Below are positions 1,735 to 13,609 of a stretch of 64,000 nucleotides of DNA, one piece after another. A program made the translations under genes and the position numbers. This stretch comes from Catenulispora pinistramenti. GTDB lineage: Bacteria; Actinomycetota; Actinomycetes; Streptomycetales; Catenulisporaceae. The stretch is from NCBI RefSeq assembly GCF_018274385.1, contig NZ_JAAFYZ010000026.1:1-64000 (forward strand). Reading direction: 5' to 3'. A model generated the notes under the pieces. The model was not told the origin of the DNA and did not search any database. It was given only the letters and a program-made list of their open reading frames with translations. Every line of letters begins with the position of its first letter. Within the stretch, counting starts at the first letter, position 1.

Positions 1735-2790
1735 ATGCTCGATCACGACAGCGCCGTCGCCCCATGGGAGACACCGGAAAGCTACTACGACGGGCCATTG
1801 CGCGCCTACGAGCGCTATCGCACCAAGGACCCCGTCCAGGCATCGAGCCTGTCGGCAGCCCTACTGTCCGCGAGTCGGCTGGTCGTGCGCGACCACGACC
1901 ACCGGTTCGAGGCCACCTGCCGCGCCGTCCAGGCCCGTTCCGCCTCACTGGTGTACCTCACCTACGGCACCGACGTCATCGTGGACCGGGTCCGTCCCGC
2001 CCACCACGACTATCTGGCGATCCTGCTCCCCCTGCACGGCGGGCTCCACCTCCGCCACCAAGGCCGCGAATTCGACGTCCGGGCCGGCGAAACGGCAGGC
2101 GTCACCTGCTCGCGCGACACCATGCACGCGGAGTTCGGCGCTCAGGCGTCGGTCCTCACGCTGCGCGTCGACGTGCACGCGACTGAGCTCGCGCTCGGGA
2201 ACCTGCTCCTGGAACCGCCGCCCACAGACCTCCGCATCCAGGCGGGCCCGGTCACCGGCCCGGCTCGCAGGTCGCTGACGGGGACAGCCGAACTGCTGGC
2301 GGCCAGCTATGACGGGAAGGATCCGGGGTCCCCGCTCCCGCCCGTGGTCATGCGCCGCATAGAGGAGCAGATCCTTTTCACCGTGCTGCTCTCCGTCAAC
2401 CACAACTACCGGGCTGCGCTGCTAGGAGAGGCGGCACGGCCGAATCGGCGCACCGTCCGCGAGGCGATCGACCTGGTCTGGGCCGAAGAGGAAGCCACCT
2501 GGACGATCCCCGAGCTCGCCGGTGCGGTGGGCGTTTCGGTCCGGGCGCTCGAGTTGGGCTTTCGAAAGGAACTGGGCAAGACCCCGCGGGAGTTCGTCCG
2601 GGAGCAGCGGCTGTTGCGCGCCCACGAGGAGTTGCTGCACGCCCATTCCGGCGACGGAACCACCGTCACCGGGGTCGCGGGCCGCTGGGGGTTCTGGCAC
2701 GCCGGCCGGTTCGCGACACGGTACGTCGAGCGGTTCGGTGTCCGTCCCGCCATGACCCTGCGATCCGGGGCCTCCACCGCGGTTCGCTGA
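1735..2790 (+). CDS. AraC-family transcriptional regulator
   Basis: A 351-aa protein. The N-terminal two thirds resemble the AraC-binding-like domain of AraC/XylS regulators (cupin-like, with LPLHGGLHLRHQGREFDVRAGE around residue 100). The C-terminal ~100 residues form the AraC DNA-binding domain: WTIPELAGAVGVSVRALELGFRK as the first helix-turn-helix and a second one ending in RFGVRPAMTLR. GGAGGAG lies ahead of the ATG at 1735. The 3' end overlaps a degenerate copy of the operon promoter motif (2781-2809). Related regulators of this architecture control aromatic catabolism, so it is a prime candidate activator of the twin promoters. Confidence 0.88.
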   Translation: MLDHDSAVAPWETPESYYDGPLRAYERYRTKDPVQASSLSAALLSASRLVVRDHDHRFEATCRAVQARSASLVYLTYGTDVIVDRVRPAHHDYLAILLPLHGGLHLRHQGREFDVRAGETAGVTCSRDTMHAEFGAQASVLTLRVDVHATELALGNLLLEPPPTDLRIQAGPVTGPARRSLTGTAELLAASYDGKDPGSPLPPVVMRRIEEQILFTVLLSVNHNYRAALLGEAARPNRRTVREAIDLVWAEEEATWTIPELAGAVGVSVRALELGFRKELGKTPREFVREQRLLRAHEELLHAHSGDGTTVTGVAGRWGFWHAGRFATRYVERFGVRPAMTLRSGASTAVR

Positions 2791-2927: not shown

Positions 2928-4286
2928 ATGGCTGTCGAAAGCCTCGAGGACAAGATCAACCAGGCCGGCGGGGCGCTCCGGATGCTGCGCAGCGCGCACG
3001 CCGGCGCCCACCCGTTCCCCATCCCACCGCAGTTCACGACGTGGCAGGACGAGCAGAAGTCCTGGCACGAGACCGCTGTGGTGTTCGAGATGCGCCACAT
3101 GACCGACGTCTACTTCGAAGGCCCCGACGTGCGCCGGCTGCTCAGCGACGTGGCAGTCAACAGCTTCGCCGCCTTCGGCCCGATGAAGGCCAAGCAGCTC
3201 GTCGTGGCCAACGACGCAGGCCAGTACGTCGGCGACGCGATCCTGTTCGGGCTCGGCGAGGAGAAGGTCACCCTCGTGGGCGGCCCCGCCGCCGCGAACT
3301 GGGTCTGCTTCCAGGCCGAGCGGGGCGGCTACGACGTCGCGATCACCCGTGACGAAAACGCTCTGGTCACCAAGGGGGAACGCCTCGTCTTCCGCTACCA
3401 GGTACAGGGCCCGCGCGCCCTCGACATCGTCACGGCCGCACACGGTGCTCCGCTTCCACGGATCAAGTTCTTCAACATCGGCGCCTTCGACATCGCCGGA
3501 ACCCCGGTCCACGCGCTCAACCACACCATGGTCGGCATCCCCGGGCAGGAGACGACCGGGCTGGAGATCTTCGGGCCCGTGGAGTCCGGGCCTCGGGTCC
3601 TGGAAGCGCTGCTGGCGGCCGGGGAGCAGTACGGGCTGCGGCAAGGCGGGGCGATCGCGTACTCCACCACGGCGCTGGAGTCAGGATGGCTCGGCCTCGT
3701 GGTGCCCGGCATCTACGCCGGCGGCGCCACCAAGGCATACCGCGAGTGGCTGCCCGCGAAGGGATTCGAGGCCGGCGTCTCCCTCGGCGGAAGCTTCGCC
3801 TCCGACGACATCGACGACTACGTTCCCACGCCCTACGACCTGGGCTACGCGAACATCGTCAAGTTCGACCACGACTTCATCGGCGCGGACGCGCTGCGCC
3901 GGATCAAGGCCGAACCCCATCGTCGCAAGGTCTGGCTGCGGTGGAACCGCGAAGACGTCACCCGGCTCCTCGGGGACACCTTGTACGCGCCCGAACAAGC
4001 GCGGCCCAGGTACCTGGAAATCCCGTACGCCGTCTACGCCACCTACCAATACGACGCGATCATGTACGCCGGCCGGGTGGTCGGCATCTCCAACCGCACC
4101 GGCTACACCGTCAACGTCGGCGCCTGGTCCTCCCTGTGCATGATCGACGAGGAACTGGCCGTCGACGGCACCGAGGTGACCGTGGTCTGGGGCGACCCCC
4201 AGGGCGCCCGCCTGCGTCCCGCCGTCGAATCGCCCCATGCCCTCAGGGAGATCCGGGCCGTCGTGAGCACCCGGCCACTCGTCTAG
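2928..4286 (+). CDS. Tetrahydrofolate-dependent aromatic O-demethylase, LigM/DesA-like (GcvT family)
   Basis: A 452-aa protein of the GcvT/aminomethyltransferase fold. Length and segments match vanillate/3-O-methylgallate demethylase LigM and syringate demethylase DesA: AANWVCFQAERGGYDV, FRYQVQGPRALDI, IKFFNIGAFDIAG, ALESGWLGL, KAYREWLPAKGFEA and IVKFDHDFIGADAL. Such enzymes move the methyl of an aryl methyl ether to tetrahydrofolate, giving a phenol and 5-methyl-THF, in the cytoplasm. The start is the ATG at 2928 because the upstream reading frame overlaps the promoter repeat. Genes for MetF-like and PurU proteins follow in the same operon and would recycle the cofactor. The exact methoxy-aromatic substrate is not deducible. 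Confidence 0.88.
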   Translation: MAVESLEDKINQAGGALRMLRSAHAGAHPFPIPPQFTTWQDEQKSWHETAVVFEMRHMTDVYFEGPDVRRLLSDVAVNSFAAFGPMKAKQLVVANDAGQYVGDAILFGLGEEKVTLVGGPAAANWVCFQAERGGYDVAITRDENALVTKGERLVFRYQVQGPRALDIVTAAHGAPLPRIKFFNIGAFDIAGTPVHALNHTMVGIPGQETTGLEIFGPVESGPRVLEALLAAGEQYGLRQGGAIAYSTTALESGWLGLVVPGIYAGGATKAYREWLPAKGFEAGVSLGGSFASDDIDDYVPTPYDLGYANIVKFDHDFIGADALRRIKAEPHRRKVWLRWNREDVTRLLGDTLYAPEQARPRYLEIPYAVYATYQYDAIMYAGRVVGISNRTGYTVNVGAWSSLCMIDEELAVDGTEVTVVWGDPQGARLRPAVESPHALREIRAVVSTRPLV

Positions 4287-4338: not shown

Positions 4339-5208
4339 ATGTCCCTGACATCATCACAGAACCCGCTCACCGCCGACCGCCTCCTGGCGGACGCGACCAT
4401 CGAGGTCATCCCGCTCAAAGGCGCCGGGGACCAGATCCAGGCCACGCCCGCCGACGCCACGGTGGCCATCACCTGCTCGCCGAAGTTCGGCTTGGACCGC
4501 ACTGTCCAGTTCTGTGCCGTCGCCGCCGGCTCCGGCCGACGGGTGGTGCCGCACCTCGCCGCCCGCATGGTGCCCAGCCGCCGCGCGCTCACCGATTTCG
4601 TCAGCCAGATCCAGGACATCGGCATCACCGACTTGTACGTGATCGGCGGCGATGGCGAGCGGCCAGCCGGCCCTTATAGCGAGGCCGGCCAGGTCCTGCA
4701 GGACCTGCACGAGCACGGCCACACGCTGACGAGGCTGGGCGTCGGCTGCTACCCCGAGGGGCATCCGCTCATCGACGACGACCGGCTGTGGGCGGCCCTG
4801 GAACGCAAGCAACAGCTGGCCACCTACATGGTCAGCCAAATGTGCTTCGACGCCGTGGTCGTCCGTGACTGGCTCGCCCAAGCCCGACAGCGCGGCATCT
4901 CGCTCCCGCTGCGGGCAGGCGTCGCCGGGCCGGTGAAGATCGCCAAGCTGGCCGAGCTGTCGCTCAGGATCGGGGTCGGCCAGTCACTCCGCTACCTGCG
5001 CAAGCAGCACGGCATGGTCGGCAACGTCCTGCGCGGCCGCGCGTACGACCCGAGCCCGTTCGTCTCCGCGATCGCCGGGACGGCCGGAATCGAAGGGCTC
5101 CACGTCTTCAGCTTCAACCAGGTTCCCGAGTACGTCGCCTGGCGGGACGCCCGCCGAGACAGTGGCGACGGCCGCGCCGCGGTAGGTGCCACGCAGGTGC
5201 CGCAGTAG
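4339..5208 (+). CDS. Methylenetetrahydrofolate reductase-like protein (MetF family)
   Basis: A 289-aa TIM-barrel flavoprotein of the MTHFR family. Typical motifs include an N-terminal TCSPKFG (in place of FEFFPPK), VVPHLAARM near residue 75, VIGGDGERP, VGCYPEGHP and a Q-containing MVSQMCFD segment that binds flavin and folate. It lies 52 bp after the O-demethylase gene with GAAGGACC before its ATG. In SYK-6-type lignin pathways a metF partner oxidises 5-methyl-THF formed by LigM back to methylene-THF, and the same role is inferred here. It is diverged enough from housekeeping MetF to look dedicated to this operon. Confidence 0.85.
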   Translation: MSLTSSQNPLTADRLLADATIEVIPLKGAGDQIQATPADATVAITCSPKFGLDRTVQFCAVAAGSGRRVVPHLAARMVPSRRALTDFVSQIQDIGITDLYVIGGDGERPAGPYSEAGQVLQDLHEHGHTLTRLGVGCYPEGHPLIDDDRLWAALERKQQLATYMVSQMCFDAVVVRDWLAQARQRGISLPLRAGVAGPVKIAKLAELSLRIGVGQSLRYLRKQHGMVGNVLRGRAYDPSPFVSAIAGTAGIEGLHVFSFNQVPEYVAWRDARRDSGDGRAAVGATQVPQ

Positions 5209-5224: not shown

Positions 5225-6079
5225 TTGAGCGACGTCATCATCACCCTGTCGTGCCCGGACCAGCCCGGGATCGTCCGCGCCGTCTCCGGATTCGTGGCCG
5301 ATCAGGGCTGCACCATCACCGAGAGCCATCAGTTCATCGACGGTGAGTCTTCGCGCCTGTACATGCGCCTGGCGTTCCAGGCCGTCCACGGCGCCACTCC
5401 CGGTATCGACCCGCTGAGCAGCGACTTCGCCGAGGTGGCGCAAGAGTTCCTGATGACCTGGAAGATCACCGACGCCACCCGGCGCGCCCGCCTGATCATC
5501 ATGGTGAGCAAGTTCGGCCACTGTCTCAACGACCTGCTCTACCGGGTCAAGGTCGGCCAGCTCAACGCCGAGATCGCAGCCGTGGTGTCCAATCATCGCG
5601 ACCTTGAGCAGCTGGCGACGGCCGCGGGCGTGCCGTTCGTGCACGTGCCGGTCACCGCGGCCACCAAGCCCGAAGCCGAGGCGGAACTGCTCCGGCTCGT
5701 GGACGCCCTCGATGTCGACCTGGTCGTCCTGGCCCGCTACATGCAGATCCTCTCGGCCGGCCTGTGCGCCAAGCTCGAGGGACGGGCCATCAACATCCAC
5801 CACTCGATGCTGCCCAGCTTCAAGGGCGCCAAGCCGTACCGGCAGGCCTATCAGCGGGGAGTGAAGCTGGTGGGCGCCACCGCCCACTACGTCACCTCCG
5901 ACCTCGACGAGGGGCCCATCATCGAGCAGGAGGTACAACGCGTCGACCACGCTATGGACGCCGCCGGTGTGACCGCGCTGGGCCGCGACACCGAATCGCT
6001 GGCCCTGGCCCGCGCCGTCCAGTGGCACCTGGAGAACCGGGTCATGCTCGACGGGCGCCGGACGGTCGTTTTCCGATGA
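5225..6079 (+). CDS. purU: Formyltetrahydrofolate deformylase
   Basis: A 284-aa protein. The N-terminal ACT domain begins IITLSCPDQPGIVRAVSGF. The C-terminal formyl-transferase-fold domain has the hydrolase signature INIHHSMLPSFKGAKPY and the later HYVTSDLDEGPII, which together supply the Asn, His and Asp catalytic triad. It hydrolyses 10-formyl-THF to formate and THF. The start is TTG at 5225 after AAGGAGA. It is 16 bp downstream of the metF-like gene. In context it would free THF and dispose of the aryl methyl carbon as formate. The intermediate FolD step is not encoded here and must come from elsewhere. Confidence 0.92.
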   Translation: MSDVIITLSCPDQPGIVRAVSGFVADQGCTITESHQFIDGESSRLYMRLAFQAVHGATPGIDPLSSDFAEVAQEFLMTWKITDATRRARLIIMVSKFGHCLNDLLYRVKVGQLNAEIAAVVSNHRDLEQLATAAGVPFVHVPVTAATKPEAEAELLRLVDALDVDLVVLARYMQILSAGLCAKLEGRAINIHHSMLPSFKGAKPYRQAYQRGVKLVGATAHYVTSDLDEGPIIEQEVQRVDHAMDAAGVTALGRDTESLALARAVQWHLENRVMLDGRRTVVFR

Positions 6080-6151: not shown

Positions 6152-7138
6152 TCACGACGCGCCACCGGTGCCCGTCCACGGGCGCGGCCGCCGATGCTGC
6201 CCCACCCGGGCCTTCGGCACAGCCACCGGCTCAGCGCCGGCGACGATCCGGTTCGACACCGCGCCGATCCCCTCGGCGACCAGCGTCACGACGTCACCCG
6301 GCCGCAACGGCGCGGGGATCTGCCTGCCGGTGTGGGCCCAGTGTTCGAGCAGACAGCCGGCGCCGCAGGTCCCTGAGGCGAGGACATCGCCGGGCAGCAG
6401 CTGGACGCCGCGCGAGGCGAACGCGACCAGTTCCTCGAACGACCACGCCATGTTGGCCGACGTGTCCCCGCCGCCCGGCAGCGGGACGCCGTTGAGCTCC
6501 GCGTGCATCTCCAGTGCCAGCCGGCCGTCGCGACGGTACGGCGCCAGCTCGTCGGCGGTGACGATCCACGGCCCGAGGGTGTTGGCGAAGTCCTTGCCCT
6601 TCACCGGCCCCAGGCCGACCGGCATCACCGGCGCCATCAGGTCGCGTGCCGACCAGTCGTTGAACAGCGTGTATCCGGCGATGTGCCCGGCCGCTTGCTC
6701 GGGACTCAGGTCCCGGCCGGGCTTGCCGATGACGGCGGCGAGTTCGAGTTCGAAGTCCAGCATCCGGCACCCCGGCGGCACCGCGACCGGTTCGTCCGGG
6801 CCGACCACCGCGTTGGTGTTGGAGAAGTAAAACAGCGGCTGGTCGTACCAGGCAGGGCTCGGCGCTTGCGCGCCGAGGAGCTTCAGGCTGCCTTCGAGGT
6901 GTTCTTCGAAGGTGAGGAAGTCCCGCAGCGTCCCGGGTTGTACCGGCGCGAGCAGCCGCACCTGAGACAGCGGGCGCGGCTCGCCCTCGCGGGCCTGTTC
7001 GACGAGCTCCGCGCGCCGCGCCGGCGCGGCGGCCAGCACCTCGAACTGAGAGGTACCCGCGACCAGCGGCTGAATCCGGCCACCCGTGACGACTCCCAGT
7101 CTGACCCCATCGGCGATCTCGATTCGCGCCAGCTTCAT
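6152..7138 (-). CDS. Fumarylacetoacetate hydrolase family protein (FAH fold), last gene of minus operon
   Basis: A 328-aa FAH-superfamily enzyme. Its C-terminal domain shows LDFELELAAVIGKPGRDL (metal-binding E-x-E), TLFNDWSARDLM, KGKDFANTLGPWIVT and LLPGDVLASGTCGAGC. It belongs to the longer FAH-like group seen with ring-cleavage pathways, where it hydrolyses C-C bonds in acyl-pyruvates or ring-fission products. The ATG at 7138 is preceded by GGGGAAGAG; in-frame GTG codons further up are less likely. The gene is 130 bp after the SDR gene and converges on purU with a 72-bp gap. Substrate unknown; this is the second FAH paralogue in the operon. Confidence 0.85.
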   Translation of the reverse strand: MKLARIEIADGVRLGVVTGGRIQPLVAGTSQFEVLAAAPARRAELVEQAREGEPRPLSQVRLLAPVQPGTLRDFLTFEEHLEGSLKLLGAQAPSPAWYDQPLFYFSNTNAVVGPDEPVAVPPGCRMLDFELELAAVIGKPGRDLSPEQAAGHIAGYTLFNDWSARDLMAPVMPVGLGPVKGKDFANTLGPWIVTADELAPYRRDGRLALEMHAELNGVPLPGGGDTSANMAWSFEELVAFASRGVQLLPGDVLASGTCGAGCLLEHWAHTGRQIPAPLRPGDVVTLVAEGIGAVSNRIVAGAEPVAVPKARVGQHRRPRPWTGTGGAS

Positions 7139-7268
7139 GCGCTCTTCCCCTTCGCTGTACTCGACGTCGATCCAGTACCGGAATTCGGAGGCGGCGATGC
7201 CGCCGAGCTGCTCCAGCCGGTGTGCGCGCACCGCGTCCAGTCCGACAGGCCCGCCGCCGGCCGGCGTG

Positions 7269-8000
7269 CTAGAGCAAGTGCGCTCCGGCGTCCACGACGA
7301 GGTTCTCGCCGGTGACGCCTGGACAGGTCAGCAGGAACAGCACCGCCGCGACTATGTCGCCGGGAGCGGGCAGCCGTTTGGCCGGCGTCCGCTGGCGCTG
7401 CGTTTCGAAGAACTCGGCCATGACCGGGTCGGCGTTGTCGATCGCCTCCGTCCCCGCGACCGAGCCGGGCGTGATGGCGTTCACCCGCACCGGAGCGAGC
7501 TCGACCGCGAGCGAGTTGACCAGGCCGATGACTGCGGAGTTGGCCATCGACATCGTCGTGGACCCCGGTGAGGGCCGCCACATGGACAGGCCGCTGAACA
7601 GCACGACGGAGCCGTCCGGGTCGAGCTTGGGCAGTGCGTGCGCGACGGCGTTCGCGTAGCCGACCGTCTTGATGAGCATCATGCGTGCGGCGGCATCCGC
7701 ACGGAAGTCGGCCACGGTGTTCTTGTCGCGTTCGATCGCGGTGATCACCAGATGGTCGACCACGTCGATGCCGGTGAACAAGCGGCGAAGGGCGGCGTCG
7801 TCCGACAGGTCGCAGGCCAGCCCGCGAGCCCGCGGGCCGAGTTCGGCGGCGCGGGCCTCGGCGGCGTGCGCGTCCCGCCCGGTGACCGTCACTCGCGCGC
7901 CTTGTCCTGCCGCGGCGCGGGCCAGTTCGAACCCCAGGCCGCGCGCTCCGCCGATGACGAGGAGGTGTGCGTCTTTCCTGAGCATCGCGTTCATCTTCAT
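7269..8000 (-). CDS. Short-chain dehydrogenase/reductase family protein with atypical active site
   Basis: A 243-aa classical-length SDR. It has an N-terminal nucleotide-binding GGARGLG, the CDLSD acidic loop near residue 64, and ELAPVRVNAITPGSVAGTE after the active-site region. The usual YxxxK is replaced: the aligned segment reads TTMSMANSAVIGL, so Tyr is Met150 and Lys is Asn154. GGAGAGG precedes the ATG at 8000. It lies between the FAD hydroxylase and the last FAH gene. Either it is a non-classical enzyme or binding protein, or it has lost oxidoreductase activity. The family assignment is firm, the activity is not. Confidence 0.85.
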   Translation of the reverse strand: MKMNAMLRKDAHLLVIGGARGLGFELARAAAGQGARVTVTGRDAHAAEARAAELGPRARGLACDLSDDAALRRLFTGIDVVDHLVITAIERDKNTVADFRADAAARMMLIKTVGYANAVAHALPKLDPDGSVVLFSGLSMWRPSPGSTTMSMANSAVIGLVNSLAVELAPVRVNAITPGSVAGTEAIDNADPVMAEFFETQRQRTPAKRLPAPGDIVAAVLFLLTCPGVTGENLVVDAGAHLL

Positions 8001-8015: not shown

Positions 8016-9521
8016 CTATGACGCCGGCACAGCGGACGGCTGCAACGTGGTCTCAAGCGCGGCGACCAGGACGTCCAGTTCGGCTGAGTCGCCGACGGCC
8101 CCGAAGAGGTAGCGATCGGGCCTGATGATCACGGCCGCTGCTCCCAGACTCCTCACCCAGTCGCGTACTTCCCCGGAGAACTCCTGGAGGACCTGCGCGT
8201 CGAGCGACTCCAGCATCGCCTTCGTCCGGTCGGAGGTGCCGGACAGAACCACGGGATCCCCCACCACGGCGAAGCGGTAACCCACGACGTCGTCGAGGAG
8301 TCGGCCGCTCGCGGTTCTCGGCTGGGCGCTCAGCGTCCCGGCGAGTTCGTTCGTGTCGTCCCGGACGCCGGGGCCCAGACGCGGGCGCAACGCCTCCGCC
8401 CGCACCACGGGTGGCTCGTCCGCCGACGCCACCAGCGCCTCGATCTTGTTCGCCCACTCCGCGGCCAGCGTCGTGTACGCGCCCACATGCGGTCTGCGCT
8501 CGGTCTCGTAGGTGTCCAACAGCTCGATCGGCGAGTCGCCCCGAATCACGCGGCCGAGCTTCCAGGCCAGATTGGTGGCGTCCCGGATGCCGGAACACAT
8601 CCCCTGGCCCAGGTGGGGCGGCATGGTGTGGGCGGAGTCCCCGGCCAGGAGGAGCCGGCCGGCGCGCCACGGGGTGGCCGTGAGCGACCGCCACTCGTAG
8701 ACGTCGCAGCGCAGCATCCGGTACTCGTCCGGGCTGAACCACGGCGACAGTACTTCGTAGGCCTTCTCGGTGCGCTCGAAGGCCGCCGAATCGTCGTCAG
8801 GGCGAAGCATCAGCTCGAACCGCAGCCGCGGCGCGGCGATCGGCGCGAACGTCAACGGGTTGCGGATCGCGCCCTGGATGAAGGCATCGCGGCCGGCGAG
8901 CTCGTCCTTGGCGACGAAGGGAATGATGTCGATGATCAGCGAGCGGTGGGTGGCGTTGTGATCGATCTGCGTACTGCCCATGAGCTCGCGCACGCTGGAG
9001 TTGGCGCCGTCACACCCCACCACGAACGACGCCCTGATCTGGCGGTCCTGGGCGGTGGCGATCTCGCGGACGTTCACCAGCACGCTGTCGCCCGCGTCCT
9101 TCAGCGTCGTGACCTCCCAGCCGAAGTACGTGCCGGCGTTGGCGTAGTTGTGGGCGTAGCCGCGCAACACGGCCTCGAAGTCGGGCTGGTGGAACATGTA
9201 GTCCGACTGCCACCCCTGCTCGGTGCGGCCCCGGTGCCAGTCGAATTCCATCACCGTGCGCCACTGGGAGTCGTAGTGGCGGTACATGCCCACCAGCGAG
9301 AAATCCTTCTCGAGGTGCTGAAGGCCGAGTGTCTGGAACGCCCTCATCGTCTCGTCGTCGACGTGTGTCGCGCGCGGACGGGCCATCGGCATGCGGCCGC
9401 GGTCGATGACGGCGACTCGCAGACCTTCCAGCTCAAGGAGGCGCCCGAGCGCCAGACCTGTTGTCCCGCAACCGATCACGGCTACATCGACATCGACATC
9501 GCCGTTGACCCTGCTGTCCAT
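8016..9521 (-). CDS. FAD-dependent aromatic hydroxylase, MhpA-like (class A flavoprotein monooxygenase)
   Basis: A 501-aa protein with the three class A signatures: GCGTTG dinucleotide fold at residues 17-22, the DG motif in VVGCDGANS (171-172), and the GD motif in LLAGDSAHTMPPHLGQGM (294-295). The C-terminal thioredoxin-like domain seen in phenol and 3-hydroxyphenylpropionate hydroxylases is present in shortened form. Such enzymes ortho-hydroxylate a phenolic ring using NAD(P)H and O2. The ATG at 9521 follows GAGGAG at good spacing; a TTG at 9539 overlaps the upstream gene. It likely prepares the dihydroxylated ring for the extradiol dioxygenase encoded in the same operon. Confidence 0.9.
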   Translation of the reverse strand: MDSRVNGDVDVDVAVIGCGTTGLALGRLLELEGLRVAVIDRGRMPMARPRATHVDDETMRAFQTLGLQHLEKDFSLVGMYRHYDSQWRTVMEFDWHRGRTEQGWQSDYMFHQPDFEAVLRGYAHNYANAGTYFGWEVTTLKDAGDSVLVNVREIATAQDRQIRASFVVGCDGANSSVRELMGSTQIDHNATHRSLIIDIIPFVAKDELAGRDAFIQGAIRNPLTFAPIAAPRLRFELMLRPDDDSAAFERTEKAYEVLSPWFSPDEYRMLRCDVYEWRSLTATPWRAGRLLLAGDSAHTMPPHLGQGMCSGIRDATNLAWKLGRVIRGDSPIELLDTYETERRPHVGAYTTLAAEWANKIEALVASADEPPVVRAEALRPRLGPGVRDDTNELAGTLSAQPRTASGRLLDDVVGYRFAVVGDPVVLSGTSDRTKAMLESLDAQVLQEFSGEVRDWVRSLGAAAVIIRPDRYLFGAVGDSAELDVLVAALETTLQPSAVPAS

Positions 9522-9531
9522 ATCAAGCTCC

Positions 9532-9954
9532 TCAATCAAGGCTGATCGTGTCGGCGAACAGGCTGAAGGAGAGTCGGATGGTTCCTTCGTTCAGCTGCCA
9601 CCCGTGCACGGTGTTCGCGCGCAGGCCCGCGCGGTGGAAAGGTTCTGTATCGGAGATGGCCGTCGCGGCTTCCAGGGACGATGCCCTGATGATGGCGGTG
9701 CCGCTGCCGTCCCAGTCTTCGCCGGCGGCATTGGCGCCGGACAGGAACAAGACGCCGTTCTCCTCCTGCTCCTTGAGCCAGAGAATGTGTTCCCTGAGAT
9801 GGGATGCCAGGTACTCCATCGGCGAGTCCACGGGATGCACCATGTCCATGCGCATCATGTACAGCTGCACCTGACGCAGTCTTCGCAGGTGGTCTTCCAG
9901 GCTGAACGAATCCGCTGCGGGATCCGGCAGGTTCTCGTCTCCGGCGGTCGTCAT
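9532..9954 (-). CDS. YciI-like (dimeric alpha/beta barrel) protein
   Basis: A 140-aa protein. Its middle part resembles the YCII/muconolactone-isomerase-like fold: YLASHLREHILWLKEQEENG, then LFLSGAN and a DGSGTAIIRASSLEAATAI strand-helix unit. YciI-type proteins have a conserved His and Asp, and several take part in aromatic or halo-aromatic degradation as isomerases or lactone-handling enzymes. GAGGAG precedes the ATG at 9954, which lies 12 bp after the SMP-30 gene. A role on a ring-cleavage intermediate is inferred from context only. Confidence 0.7.
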   Translation of the reverse strand: MTTAGDENLPDPAADSFSLEDHLRRLRQVQLYMMRMDMVHPVDSPMEYLASHLREHILWLKEQEENGVLFLSGANAAGEDWDGSGTAIIRASSLEAATAISDTEPFHRAGLRANTVHGWQLNEGTIRLSFSLFADTISLD

Positions 9955-9966
9955 TTCCGATGCTCC

Positions 9967-10800
9967 TCAGGGGTTTGCGGCCGGTTCGTATATTTCGACA
10001 TGGGATTTCAGAGTCTTGTTGGCGACGGCCTCCAGGACCGAGCCGCCGCCGGTCTCGGCCACGGTCACGAACAGCCGTCCGTCAGGGCCCAGACAGCACG
10101 CGACCGGTTGGCCCTCTCCTGTGCTGATCTGGCGCAGCGGACCGGATCGGGCGATGAGGACGACCGCATGGGCGGTGAGCGTGCAGACCCAGACGCCGTC
10201 CGCCGCGGCGCAGATCCCGTCGGGTCGCGCTTCGGGATGCACGACCGCGGCGAGGTCGGCGAACAGCCTCCGGTCGGTGAGCTGTCCGTCCGCGGCGATG
10301 GTGAATGCGGTCAGGCGCTGGGCCCAGGTTTCCGCGACGACGAGGGTGGCGCCGTCGTCGATGATGGCCAGCCCGTTCGGGAACTCGAGGTCTTCGGCCG
10401 CCACCGTCGCCCGTCCGTCGGGCGTGACATGGATCAGTCGGCCTGGCCGCGGCTGTTCACCGAGGTGGGCGGCGTACCCGACATCGTCCACGTAGAGAGC
10501 GCCGTGGTGATCACCGACCATGTCTCCCAACGGTCCCGCGGCGACCGCGGACAAGTCCGCATACGCCCCGAAGCCGGTTCCGTCCCAGAGCCCGACTCGC
10601 CTTTCGCGCATGATCGCGCCGACCAAGCGGCCGTCGGGAAGGAACCACAAGCCATTCGACTGCGCGGCCAGCGGCGTGAACGCCCAGGCGCCGCCGCTGT
10701 CGGTCCAGATCCCGCCCTTCTGCGGATCCGAGACCCACAGCGCTCCCTCACTCCATCGCGGGCCTTCGCCCAACGTCATCCCATCGCTGTGTGGCCTCAT
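9967..10800 (-). CDS. SMP-30/gluconolactonase-family hydrolase
   Basis: A 277-aa six-bladed beta-propeller protein of the SMP-30/LRE family. It opens with LGEGPRWSEGALWVSD and carries the metal-site segments FPNGLAIIDDGATLVVAET and ARPDGICAAADGVWVCT. These enzymes are Ca/Zn-dependent lactonases. The ATG at 10800 lies 4 bp after the stop of the dioxygenase gene, so translation is probably coupled. In this operon it may open a lactone formed after ring cleavage. No signal peptide is visible, which fits a cytoplasmic role. Confidence 0.85.
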   Translation of the reverse strand: MRPHSDGMTLGEGPRWSEGALWVSDPQKGGIWTDSGGAWAFTPLAAQSNGLWFLPDGRLVGAIMRERRVGLWDGTGFGAYADLSAVAAGPLGDMVGDHHGALYVDDVGYAAHLGEQPRPGRLIHVTPDGRATVAAEDLEFPNGLAIIDDGATLVVAETWAQRLTAFTIAADGQLTDRRLFADLAAVVHPEARPDGICAAADGVWVCTLTAHAVVLIARSGPLRQISTGEGQPVACCLGPDGRLFVTVAETGGGSVLEAVANKTLKSHVEIYEPAANP

Positions 10801-10804
10801 GGCG

Positions 10805-11734
10805 TCAGCCGGTCGCGCTGTGGGCGCCGGTCATGTGCGCGGCGAGGTCCTCCGGGTTGACGAAGGACGGTGGAGGCGGCGGCCCCCAGCTCAACAGGGC
10901 CTTGTCGTCCTCCCAGACCCCGGGCGACCACAGCGAGTCGTCGATGATGCAGTCGAGGTCGGAGTAGTACTCGGAGAATGTTCCGGCCGGATCCCGGAGA
11001 TACCAGAAGAAGTTGGAGCCGATGAAGTGGCGTCCCAGCCCCCAGGCGTGGCGTTCGGGATGGTCCTGGAGCATCGCCATCGCGCCACGCCCGATCTCGT
11101 CGACGTCCTCGACCTGCCAGGAGGTGTGGTGCAGGTAGTTGACCGGCGCCCGCGTGACCAACACGTTGTGGTGGTCGGTCGAGCATCGCAGGAACGCCGC
11201 CGCGTCACGGACCTCGTCGGACACCTTCAGGCCGAAGCCGTCGGTGAAGAAGTGCCGGGAGGCGGCCTGGTCGGTGGACCCGATCACGACGTGGCCGAGC
11301 CTGCGGGGCCGCACCGCGCCTTCACGCAGGATCCCGGGCGCGCGGGCTTCCGGTCGCCTGACCAGTCCCGGCTGGTTGTAGCCTGCCTCCAGGGCCGGCC
11401 GCTGGATCAGCCGCCGGGTCACCTTGGCGGTGACCTGCACGCCGGTGACCGGCTCGACGGCCGTCACGACTTCGTCGGTCATCTGGGAGACAGCGAAGTC
11501 AAAGCGCCGCAGTCGGCCGGCGATCCGCCCGATGTCGTCGAAGTCGTCGACCCCTATCTCGATCCGCAGCAGCTGCCGGTGCGGCGCCGGCACCAGGCGG
11601 AGCTGCCGGCCGCCGTCGGTCGTCGACAGCCAGCCGTCGTCCTCGCCGGTCAGCCCGAAGTCCTCATAGTAGCCGCGGACAGCCTCGACCTCCGGTACGC
11701 CGACCGTCAGCGAGTTCAGGTTGTGAAGACCCAT
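10805..11734 (-). CDS. Extradiol ring-cleavage dioxygenase (VOC superfamily, type I)
   Basis: A 309-aa two-domain VOC protein like biphenyl-2,3-diol 1,2-dioxygenase. The Fe(II) ligands appear in place: His148 in RRLGHVVIGS, His202/203 in NYLHHTSWQVED and Glu255 in GTFSEYYSDLD. It would cleave a catecholic ring next to the two hydroxyls in the cytoplasm. GAGGAGG precedes the ATG at 11734; an in-frame codon 15 nt upstream is less favoured. It is 15 bp downstream of the first FAH gene. It is the ring-opening step of the operon; the natural catechol is unknown. Confidence 0.9.
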   Translation of the reverse strand: MGLHNLNSLTVGVPEVEAVRGYYEDFGLTGEDDGWLSTTDGGRQLRLVPAPHRQLLRIEIGVDDFDDIGRIAGRLRRFDFAVSQMTDEVVTAVEPVTGVQVTAKVTRRLIQRPALEAGYNQPGLVRRPEARAPGILREGAVRPRRLGHVVIGSTDQAASRHFFTDGFGLKVSDEVRDAAAFLRCSTDHHNVLVTRAPVNYLHHTSWQVEDVDEIGRGAMAMLQDHPERHAWGLGRHFIGSNFFWYLRDPAGTFSEYYSDLDCIIDDSLWSPGVWEDDKALLSWGPPPPPSFVNPEDLAAHMTGAHSATG

Positions 11735-11749
11735 GTGCCGCCTCCTCAT

Positions 11750-12634
11750 TCAGGGCTTTGAGATGGTCCGCGAGACGTGCGGCGGACCTTCGGCGAACGT
11801 GTTGCGAAGGCGGCCGACACCGGAGATCCAGGTCTCCAGGACATCCCCCGGTGCGAGATAGCGCTGCGGCGACCGGGCGTGGCCGACACCGGAAGGCGTG
11901 CCGGTGAACACGATGTCGCCTGGAGTCAGCGGAAGAATCGCCGACAGTCGTTCGATGAGCACGGCGACGGAGAAGATGAGCTGGCTCGTGCGGGCCCGCT
12001 GCACGACCTCGCCGTTGACACTGCAGCCGATCTCCAGGTCCTCGCGGTCGGCCAGCTCATCGGGCGTGACGATCTCCGGCCCGATCGGGGCGAACCCGGG
12101 AAAGGACTTGCCGATGCTGAACTGTGGCGGGGTGCCGACCAGCTGACGGGTCCGCTCGGACAGGTCCTGCCCGACCGTGACGCCCGCGACATGGTCCCAG
12201 GCCCGAACCGCCTGGACGGCGACGGCCCGCCGGCCGATGACGACGACCAACTCCGCCTCCCAGTCCACGGTCGCCGTCGGCAGCTTCACCTCGTCGCCGG
12301 GGCCGGCGAGGCAGGTCGGGAATTTGGTGAACACGGCCGGTTCCGGCGGTGGCGGCAGGCGGCTCTCGCCGACGTGGTCGGCGTAGTTCAACCCGATCGC
12401 GAACACCTGCGAGGGACGCGGCACCGGCGCTTTGAGCCGGCTCGGATCGAAGGGCTCGACCAGTGACCGGGCCTGCGCCGCCCGCAAGCGGTCGGCCCAG
12501 ACCACGAACTCGTCCCAGCGGGCGAACACGGCCTGCGGATCCGCGGCGAACCGGCCATCGCTGGCCTTCTCCACGTCGATGACGCCGTCGGGGTACTTGA
12601 GCACAAGCCGGCCATCAAGATTTGCGATACGCAT
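11750..12634 (-). CDS. Fumarylacetoacetate hydrolase family protein (FAH fold), second gene of minus operon
   Basis: A 294-aa FAH-family protein of the common actinobacterial type: AIGLNYADHVGE, VDWEAELVVVIG (metal-binding acidic residues), TVGQDLSERTRQ, GKSFPGFAPIGPEIVT and GDIVFTGTPSGVG. This group includes acylpyruvate hydrolases and 2-hydroxyhepta-2,4-diene-1,7-dioate isomerases. AGAGGAAG precedes the ATG at 12634. It lies between the PrdB-like and the dioxygenase genes and probably acts on the ring-fission product. It is clearly different in length and motifs from the FAH protein at the operon end. Confidence 0.88.
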   Translation of the reverse strand: MRIANLDGRLVLKYPDGVIDVEKASDGRFAADPQAVFARWDEFVVWADRLRAAQARSLVEPFDPSRLKAPVPRPSQVFAIGLNYADHVGESRLPPPPEPAVFTKFPTCLAGPGDEVKLPTATVDWEAELVVVIGRRAVAVQAVRAWDHVAGVTVGQDLSERTRQLVGTPPQFSIGKSFPGFAPIGPEIVTPDELADREDLEIGCSVNGEVVQRARTSQLIFSVAVLIERLSAILPLTPGDIVFTGTPSGVGHARSPQRYLAPGDVLETWISGVGRLRNTFAEGPPHVSRTISKP

Positions 12635-12673
12635 GCGGCGCACTTCCTCTTCTGTTCGACACGGTGCCGACGC

Positions 12674-13609
12674 TCAGCAGGCACACCGGACGGCGAACTC
12701 CCGCTCATTCCCGCCGCCCAGAACCTGCGTGTGGGCCGCCGCATTCGCCAGGACCGAACCGCGGATCGCGTTGTCGAGGCGGTAGACGTCCGCGACCAGG
12801 TCTTCCCAGTCCCGGCTGCCGTCCGCGTCCCACTGGAACGGCAGCCGCTTCAGCTCCCAGTCCGACTCGGCCTGCTCGGCAAATTCCAGCGCGGCCTTGA
12901 CGATCTCCCGCTGCTGCGTCTTCGCCCGCGGCCGACCGGCCGGACACCCCAGCGGGAAGTCCAGGAACGAGGCACGAGGCGGCTTCAGATAGGTGGCCTG
13001 CTTGTACAAGGTGGTGATGCTGGTGGTCGGGATCCCCCGATTCTCGATCGCCCGGGCCAGAACCCCGAAGGCCACATGGCACTGCGGACAGAACGGCACC
13101 ACCAGTACCAAGTCGACCCCCATGGCCTGGAACTCCTCGACCACCCGGGGAGCCACCTCGGTCGCCAGCTCGTCGAACTGGCTGATCGAGCCGACCATCG
13201 ACACCGCGTTCGCCGCGTACCGCCCGATGACGCCGTCCCGCTCCAGATCGAGCATCGTGTCCCTCGGGTAGGCCACGTTGGGGTCGGCTAGCGCGAAGGC
13301 CCGGATCGGCGTCATGTGCCCGAACAGCACGTCGTCCAGGTCGCGCTCCCTGGGCAGCAGCCGGTAGGAAAGGTCGCTGTGCTGCCGGAGCCGCGGCTGG
13401 TCCGGAAAGTAGGCACCGCAGGACACCAGCAGCCCGACCGTGGCCTCCCGCAACGGGACCCGCATCGGCGTCAGCGCGGGCGGATCGAAGTCGGGCAGCG
13501 GTTCGGGCTCGATGCCCAGCACGTTCCTGAGCAGCTTGTCCGGATCGAACACCGGGAAACCGGGATCCACCGGCGCGGAAGTCGTCTGAATGAGGTCGGT
13601 CACGGTCAT
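12674..13609 (-). CDS. PrdB/GrdB-like reductase component with Cys in place of selenocysteine
   Basis: A 311-aa protein resembling the selenoprotein B subunit of D-proline (PrdB) and glycine/betaine reductases. The matching block runs from ATVGLLVSCGAYF (about 56) through SISQFDELATEVAPRVVEEF to LVVPFCPQCHVAFGVLARAI and GIPTTSI. In PrdB the active-site motif is U-x-x-C; here it is Cys174-x-x-Cys177. The stop is an ordinary codon and no in-frame UGA is read through. It is the first gene of the ring-cleavage operon, 45 bp after the promoter repeat. Stickland reductases are anaerobic, whereas this operon contains O2-using enzymes, so a different substrate is likely. Function unknown. Confidence 0.75.
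   Translation of the reverse strand: MTVTDLIQTTSAPVDPGFPVFDPDKLLRNVLGIEPEPLPDFDPPALTPMRVPLREATVGLLVSCGAYFPDQPRLRQHSDLSYRLLPRERDLDDVLFGHMTPIRAFALADPNVAYPRDTMLDLERDGVIGRYAANAVSMVGSISQFDELATEVAPRVVEEFQAMGVDLVLVVPFCPQCHVAFGVLARAIENRGIPTTSITTLYKQATYLKPPRASFLDFPLGCPAGRPRAKTQQREIVKAALEFAEQAESDWELKRLPFQWDADGSRDWEDLVADVYRLDNAIRGSVLANAAAHTQVLGGGNEREFAVRCAC

Follow-up and report, generated by a model that had tools for sequence, protein, structure and literature searches.

Organization of the locus

The window analysed here is a stretch of 64,000 nucleotides from the soil actinomycete Catenulispora pinistramenti (assembly GCF_018274385.1, contig NZ_JAAFYZ010000026.1, positions 1-64,000; genome label G000). 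It contains eight closely spaced genes on the minus strand, running from position 13609 down to 6152 with gaps of at most 37 bases and one overlap. The gene for a PrdB-like protein stands first and is followed by those for FAH1, the VOC dioxygenase, the SMP-30 lactonase, the YCII protein, the FAD monooxygenase (FMO), the SDR and FAH2. The features are as follows.

12674..13609, minus strand: PrdB/GrdB-superfamily protein of 311 aa with Cys174-Pro-Gln-Cys177 and a C-terminal Cys309-Ala-Cys311
13079..13090, minus strand: codons of C174-P-Q-C177, the Sec-equivalent site (position computed from the start at 13609)
12677..12685, minus strand: codons for the C-terminal C-A-C; the TGA stop comes next
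11750..12643, minus strand: FAH-fold hydrolase/hydratase (FAH1); closest solved structure 6v77, 'putative HpcE'
10805..11749, minus strand: VOC extradiol ring-cleavage dioxygenase (HpaD/C23O-like)
9967..10800, minus strand: SMP-30/gluconolactonase-like lactonase
9532..9954, minus strand: YCII-related protein
8016..9539, minus strand: FAD aromatic monooxygenase, above the cut-off of the MhpA-type subfamily NF004829 (425 versus 390)
7269..8000, minus strand: short-chain dehydrogenase (SDR)
6152..7231, minus strand: second FAH-fold protein (FAH2)
5225..6079, plus strand: formyltetrahydrofolate deformylase PurU (TIGR00655, 323 versus 286)
4339..5208, plus strand: divergent MTHFR-like protein, probably for C1 processing
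2928..4286, plus strand: homologue of LigM/DesA-type tetrahydrofolate-dependent aryl O-demethylases (E=4.5e-112 to the solved LigM 5x1i)
1735..2790, plus strand: AraC-type regulator (type named by eye), conserved with the cluster, 71% to its counterpart in L005
878..1636, plus strand: GntR-type regulator (type named by eye), 41% to a regulator encoded next to the PrdB-like gene in Saccharopolyspora soli

The coordinates 12674-13609 given for the PrdB-like gene in the first-pass annotation proved correct. The coding strand is the minus strand, the plus-strand reading being broken by a stop, and the start at 13609 agrees with the N-termini of relatives. The VOC protein matched homoprotocatechuate 2,3-dioxygenase and catechol 2,3-dioxygenase; together with the score of the FMO over the MhpA-type cut-off, this indicates that the pathway most likely uses O2. 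The earlier proposal that the gene leads an operon with O2-using enzymes was thus borne out, since it heads eight minus-strand genes that include the FAD monooxygenase and the VOC extradiol dioxygenase. On the plus strand, the product of 2928-4286 scored under the equivalog cut-offs of both DesA (454 versus 800 bits) and LigM (429.5 versus 580 bits). The MTHFR-like and PurU genes fit a role in methyl disposal, and a pairing of LigM with S6MTHFR has been described (PMC12585457).

Relationship of the window protein to PrdB and GrdB

The PrdB model TIGR04483 matched residues 43-262 of the window protein with 109.8 bits (E=1.4e-31), against a cut-off of 300. All GrdB models scored below their cut-offs (29.1 versus 602 bits for TIGR01917), and the Pfam family GRDB (PF07355) reached 21.8 against a gathering score of 22. 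Because the scores remained under every curated cut-off, the protein was regarded as a superfamily relative and not as an equivalog hit. The homology to PrdB and GrdB postulated in the first-pass annotation is therefore upheld by the significant PrdB match, whereas membership at the level of the curated families is not.

An alignment of 33 rows (A3) revealed nine invariant columns, among them C174, C177, D109, P115, and R212. The column of C174 is occupied by TGA in all 11 actinobacterial selenoprotein rows and in three of four annotated PrdBs; the fourth, the PrdB of Enterococcus gilvus, is encoded beside PrdA and has Cys (TGT) at this position. C174, in the context F173-C174-P-Q-C177-H, thus stands at the Sec position of the U-x-x-C motif and C177 is the invariant second Cys, so that CxxC replaces UxxC exactly, as had been read from the window alone. 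The Sec/Cys-x-x-Cys redox site is present in the window protein at the superfamily-homologous position. Of the partner subunits, stated in the first-pass annotation to be missing, PrdA was not found: TIGR04480 gave no match in G000 or in the genomes of four relatives, with a positive-control plasmid scoring 976 bits. An AlphaFold model generated from seven sequences had a pLDDT of 40.7. Searches of solved structures with the single sequence and with the 33-row profile revealed no solved relative, and the only hits (designed repeats and glutaredoxin fragments) were taken as spurious.

PrdB and GrdB had been described in the first-pass annotation as known from anaerobic Stickland fermentation, but PrdB-like proteins occur well beyond such fermenters. 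At E<=1e-8, TIGR04483 matched 78 of 396 Actinomycetota genomes, none of them over the cut-off, and in 83 of the 91 PrdB-like places listed for Actinomycetota an in-frame stop, nearly always a single TGA, was present (hand count). According to two surveys, PrdB belongs to the selenoprotein families that are most abundant in the surface ocean (PMC1088965, PMC2398784), ranking third in the Sargasso Sea with 42 genes (PMC1088965) and being represented in the GOS data by 235 Sec and 110 Cys homologues (PMC2398784). Given these 110 homologues, Cys at the Sec position is by itself no novelty; the novelty lies in the particular clade. No relatives were found when viral_contigs was scanned with a selenoprotein-type relative as query.

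Several unusual arrangements were observed among these proteins. On two alphaproteobacterial plasmids (L065 and L066; Haematobacter and Roseomonas) the PrdB-like proteins have Cys at the Sec position, without the CxC tail and without LigM, and on the Roseomonas plasmid the gene adjoins selO. At L027 and L035, TGA occupies both motif positions (U-P-I-U), a possible double-Sec site. At L052 (8055-10155), a 47% FAH1 homologue comes directly after a Sec-type gene, just as FAH1 comes after the PrdB-like gene in the window, and another Sec-type gene, at L107 (5726-10434), stands beside genes resembling GcvH and lipoamide dehydrogenase (by eye).

A distinct clade with four invariant cysteines

A maximum-likelihood tree was calculated from 33 rows and 224 columns; the columns of the C-terminal tail did not reach the filling limit and were excluded. 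On one side of a branch with a support of 100/100 stood the window protein together with ten further proteins. The four PrdBs were separate from this clade and grouped with PrdA-PrdB fusions at 100/99. Among clade members, identity to the window protein goes down to 38-45%. Judged by its sequence, the window protein belongs to a distinct, apparently undescribed clade of the PrdB/GrdB superfamily. The clade is marked by an active-site Cys even where Sec machinery exists, by a C-terminal C-x-C and by linkage to a LigM/DesA-type O-demethylase.

The C-x-C was located at the very C-terminus of all 14 intact clade members (as RCAC, RCNC, SCAC, SCGC or ACGC) and of none of 30 other family proteins, which were extracted from TIGR04483-match loci in Actinomycetota. 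Exactly four cysteines (174, 177, 309, and 311) are invariant in the 14 intact members, in which 61 alignment columns are invariant, including those of the non-Cys superfamily-site residues H98, D109, and R212. A TGA follows directly after the C-x-C in 13 of the 14. Its reading as a Sec codon (C-x-C-U) was rejected: the frame beyond is not conserved and no SelA was found in G000, and the terminal TGA was therefore read as a stop.

The clade is rare. It occurred in 2 of 60 near relatives and in 2 of 394 genomes of the class, both counts including the window's own genome. Among 390 genomes of the family of G773, 13 had hits, seven of the CxC type (G773, G775, G918, G927, G998, G1098, and G914) and six that were fusions or Sec types; in the family of G774, 2 of 401 genomes matched. 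SelA scored over its cut-off in 8 of the 12 genomes carrying clade members, the others being G000, G403 (of the same genus as G000 and including two Catenulispora pinisilvae contigs), G774, and G998. The SelB matches in G000 were all below cut-off, and the best one, immediately preceded on its contig by a further elongation-factor-like match, is for this reason probably EF-Tu. The idea that Cys is a mere consequence of lost Sec machinery was rejected on the basis of the eight SelA-positive genomes. Cys is a fixed choice of the clade, used even where Sec could be made.

The fusions mentioned above join PrdA-like and PrdB-like parts in one chain of about 650-700 aa with CxxC and no in-frame TGA (L103 9377-11395, L104 7991-10102, L105 9824-11902, and L106 8558-10522, in the genomes G994, G1158, G1156, and G820, respectively). 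The L103 fusion scored 464 bits with TIGR04480 and 231 bits with TIGR04483. The T-C pair of PrdA, which we take to be the pyruvoyl site, aligns with C-C in these proteins. They may represent a one-chain, selenium-free D-proline-reductase-like enzyme in actinomycetes.

Gene neighbourhoods of clade members

Flanks of up to about 10 kb per side were compared for 15 clade loci (the window, L003-L007, L054, L095-L098, L099a, L099b, L101, and L102), omitting L002 (a 4.6-kb contig) and L041 (a relic). The comparison set of 26 other family loci consisted of 19 of the 91 TIGR04483 places, chosen by span of contig sequence, two plasmid loci and five loci from the family of G773; one of these loci, L059, spans only 4.6 kb. 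A LigM homologue (E<=1e-6, within about 10 kb) was present at 11 of 15 clade loci versus 0 of 26 others (Fisher 4e-7, for loci that are not independent). Several of the 15 are closely related to one another, a single LigM counts for both L099a and L099b, and the genomes behind the linkage argument are few and in part related. Moreover, FAH1 was found near the gene at 7/15 clade loci versus 1/26 others, the VOC dioxygenase at 6/15 versus 0/26 and PurU at 6/15 versus 0/26. Most PrdB-like family loci examined have no PrdA gene nearby.

The operon synteny was kept in Streptomyces NRRL F-5126, Amycolatopsis saalfeldensis and G927. Nocardia alni retains the PrdB-like gene, the FMO, part of the SDR, the AraC-like gene, LigM, MTHFR and PurU, and Saccharopolyspora soli retains the PrdB-like gene and LigM. 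The main C. pinisilvae locus has no FMO in place, and the second PrdB-like copy of this species is paired with an FMO. Four of the 15 clade loci have no LigM nearby, which speaks against the reading preferred below. Two of them carry broken genes (frame-shifted in L098, with stops in L102) and two unbroken ones; of the latter, the L096 gene has lost three residues ahead of the motif, and L054, from another family of the same class, is the only LigM-less clade locus with a sound-looking gene. A decayed second copy was detected in the window's own genome (L041 1501-2110, G000:C79), where a frame-broken C-terminal part of the PrdB-like gene directly precedes a truncated FMO. In S. soli, a PrdB-like paralogue (L099 4719-8086) has nitrile hydratase alpha/beta genes and a GMC oxidoreductase gene nearby, unusual company for this family.

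Thioredoxin and thioredoxin reductase genes were found in clusters of relatives. In L097 (G918), three contiguous genes encode a thioredoxin reductase (TrxR; 388 bits versus a cut-off of 343), a thioredoxin-fold protein containing a CTVC motif, and the PrdB-like protein; they are adjoined by a glutathione-independent formaldehyde dehydrogenase (752 versus 637); FolD, a pterin-binding enzyme, MTHFR, PurU, LigM and FAH lie further along. A TrxR is located between the AraC-like gene and LigM in L095, a TrxR and a thioredoxin-like gene occur in the L101 cluster, and L007 has a 35-residue TrxR-like remnant exactly between the PrdB-like gene and LigM. G927, G918, and G1098 each encode other TrxRs besides the one in the cluster, and the thioredoxin-like proteins of the clusters are divergent (54-56 bits versus a cut-off of 97). 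Against the preferred reading, neither thioredoxin nor TrxR was matched in the window's own cluster, and TrxR was not found in 11 of the 15 clade loci. G000 has a single TrxR over the cut-off, on which the window protein would rely.

Proposed function of the window protein

In PrdB and GrdB, the first residue of the U-x-x-C site is the nucleophile and the second Cys the resolving thiol; in the clostridial systems a pyruvoyl partner activates the amine leaving group and shuttle proteins bring the electrons. We propose, with a probability of about 0.5, that the window protein is a selenium-free, thioredoxin-linked dithiol reductase of an undescribed clade that works with a LigM/DesA-type O-demethylase in an aerobic methoxyaromatic pathway. 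The case rests on the CxC tail, on the LigM/DesA-type demethylase and C1 genes on the other strand and on TrxR in related clusters.

By analogy with Sec in PrdB and GrdB, the Cys174 thiolate would attack a pathway intermediate at the carbon adjacent to a carbonyl (or to a phenol in its keto form) and displace a leaving group there. Cys177 would resolve the thioether, giving a Cys174-Cys177 disulfide, which the C-terminal Cys309-x-Cys311 would take over and hand on to thioredoxin, thioredoxin reductase and finally NADPH. As no PrdA was found and the C-terminal CxC is invariant, the latter is the natural candidate for a shuttle and, together with thioredoxin, would take the place of the clostridial partner subunits. 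These steps, like the function of the tail and the type of bond that is broken, are our inference. One report describes the nucleophile/resolving-thiol model for GrdB and names thioredoxin as the reductant in glycine reductase (PMC13188914), and a GrdB-like fluoroacetate reductase, proposed in another report (PMC10838667), is a precedent for another alpha leaving group, although it comes with a GrdE-like subunit. With aryl-oxide, halide or similar leaving groups, a pyruvoyl partner would probably be dispensable, and the presence of a LigM-type neighbour hints at a methoxylated substrate. The reduction may precede demethylation, follow it or take place once the ring has been opened. All this points to a pathway that otherwise uses O2 but includes a reductive step fed by thioredoxin, in line with the unusual thiol chemistry at which the first-pass annotation had hinted.

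The protein might instead act after ring opening, removing an alpha substituent reductively from the oxo-acid made by the extradiol dioxygenase, before FAH1. The position of FAH1 immediately downstream of the PrdB-like gene and the 47% FAH1 homologue directly after the Sec-type gene in L052 are consistent with this. We consider it unlikely, since among the 15 clade loci linkage to LigM is commoner than linkage to the dioxygenase (11 versus 6), L007 keeps only LigM beside the PrdB-like gene, and L006 keeps LigM and FMO without dioxygenase or FAH genes. Nearly the same small chance is given to a general thiol redox helper that reduces quinones, peroxides or disulfides and protects the pathway without being one of its enzymes. 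The CxxC, the CxC and the TrxR/Trx neighbours would suit a thiol-disulfide exchanger, but the 61 invariant columns, with H98, D109, and R212 among them, point to a substrate site, and the loci tested are linked to one type of pathway.

A further and rather improbable view is that the four cysteines bind a metal such as Zn, with the protein either accepting methyl from the LigM-type transferase on a thiolate or acting as an accessory to that enzyme. The number and spacing of the invariant cysteines (CxxC and CxC) and the frequent LigM neighbourhood are compatible with such a site; however, the first two stand at the superfamily's redox site, Sec-x-x-Cys, the TrxR neighbours favour redox use, and LigM of SYK-6 transfers the methyl group straight to THF (PMC12585457). 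It is hardly credible, despite the TIGR04483 match (E=1.4e-31), that the window protein serves in a Stickland-type system as a genuine subunit of D-proline or glycine reductase, because its score is little over a third of the cut-off, it falls outside the PrdB clade and PrdA was not found in G000 or four relatives' genomes with a working control.

Comparison with known systems and significance

The reductase proposed here shares with PrdB (TIGR04483) the homology over residues 43-262, the UxxC/CxxC site, the H98, D109, and R212 columns and, presumably, the alpha-carbon reductive chemistry. It differs in its score (109.8 versus 300 bits), its separate clade, the lack of PrdA, the aromatic operon and a length greater by about 70 residues, with the C-terminal CxC. 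GrdB, GrdF and GrdH (PF07355, TIGR01917/01918) and FarB, the GrdB-like fluoroacetate reductase, have the same active-site region, whereas the window protein is selenium-free, shorter and below all GrdB cut-offs. Like the clade, the PrdB-like selenoproteins of aerobic marine and soil bacteria mostly have no PrdA gene nearby; they differ by their in-frame stop (83/91), by the lack of the CxC tail and, at the 26 non-CxC loci, by the lack of a LigM neighbour. The LigE/F/G beta-etherases provide a precedent for thiol-based reductive cleavage next to lignin-type aromatics, but these sphingomonad etherases, like TeCHQ dehalogenase, use glutathione. LigM/DesA plus LigE/F/G systems share with the window a LigM-type gene with MTHFR-like and PurU genes; the neighbours here are instead the PrdB-like protein and, in relatives, thioredoxin reductase.

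The open-licence literature searched on PrdB/GrdB with aerobic, aromatic or O-demethylase systems, on actinobacterial thiol-based ether cleavage, on PrdA-PrdB fusions and on LigM contained nothing recognised as describing the clade, and reactions of the superfamily were found assigned only for amino-acid-type substrates and fluoroacetate. The clade thus offers a handle on PrdB-like function: a Cys protein without Sec or a known pyruvoyl partner, in a defined pathway and with a nominated electron donor. In a more specific form, which is a doubtful prospect, it would be a glutathione- and selenium-free reductive C-X lyase of aerobic actinomycetes, breaking either an aryl C-Cl bond or an alpha-aryloxy C-O bond of the beta-ether type in a methoxylated aromatic, and electrons would pass from NADPH via TrxR and thioredoxin to its own CxC tail. 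One polypeptide would then do what LigE/F/G or TeCHQ dehalogenase do with glutathione. If such a C-O or C-Cl bond is cleaved, actinomycetes would gain a mycothiol- and glutathione-independent route into methoxylated aromatics.
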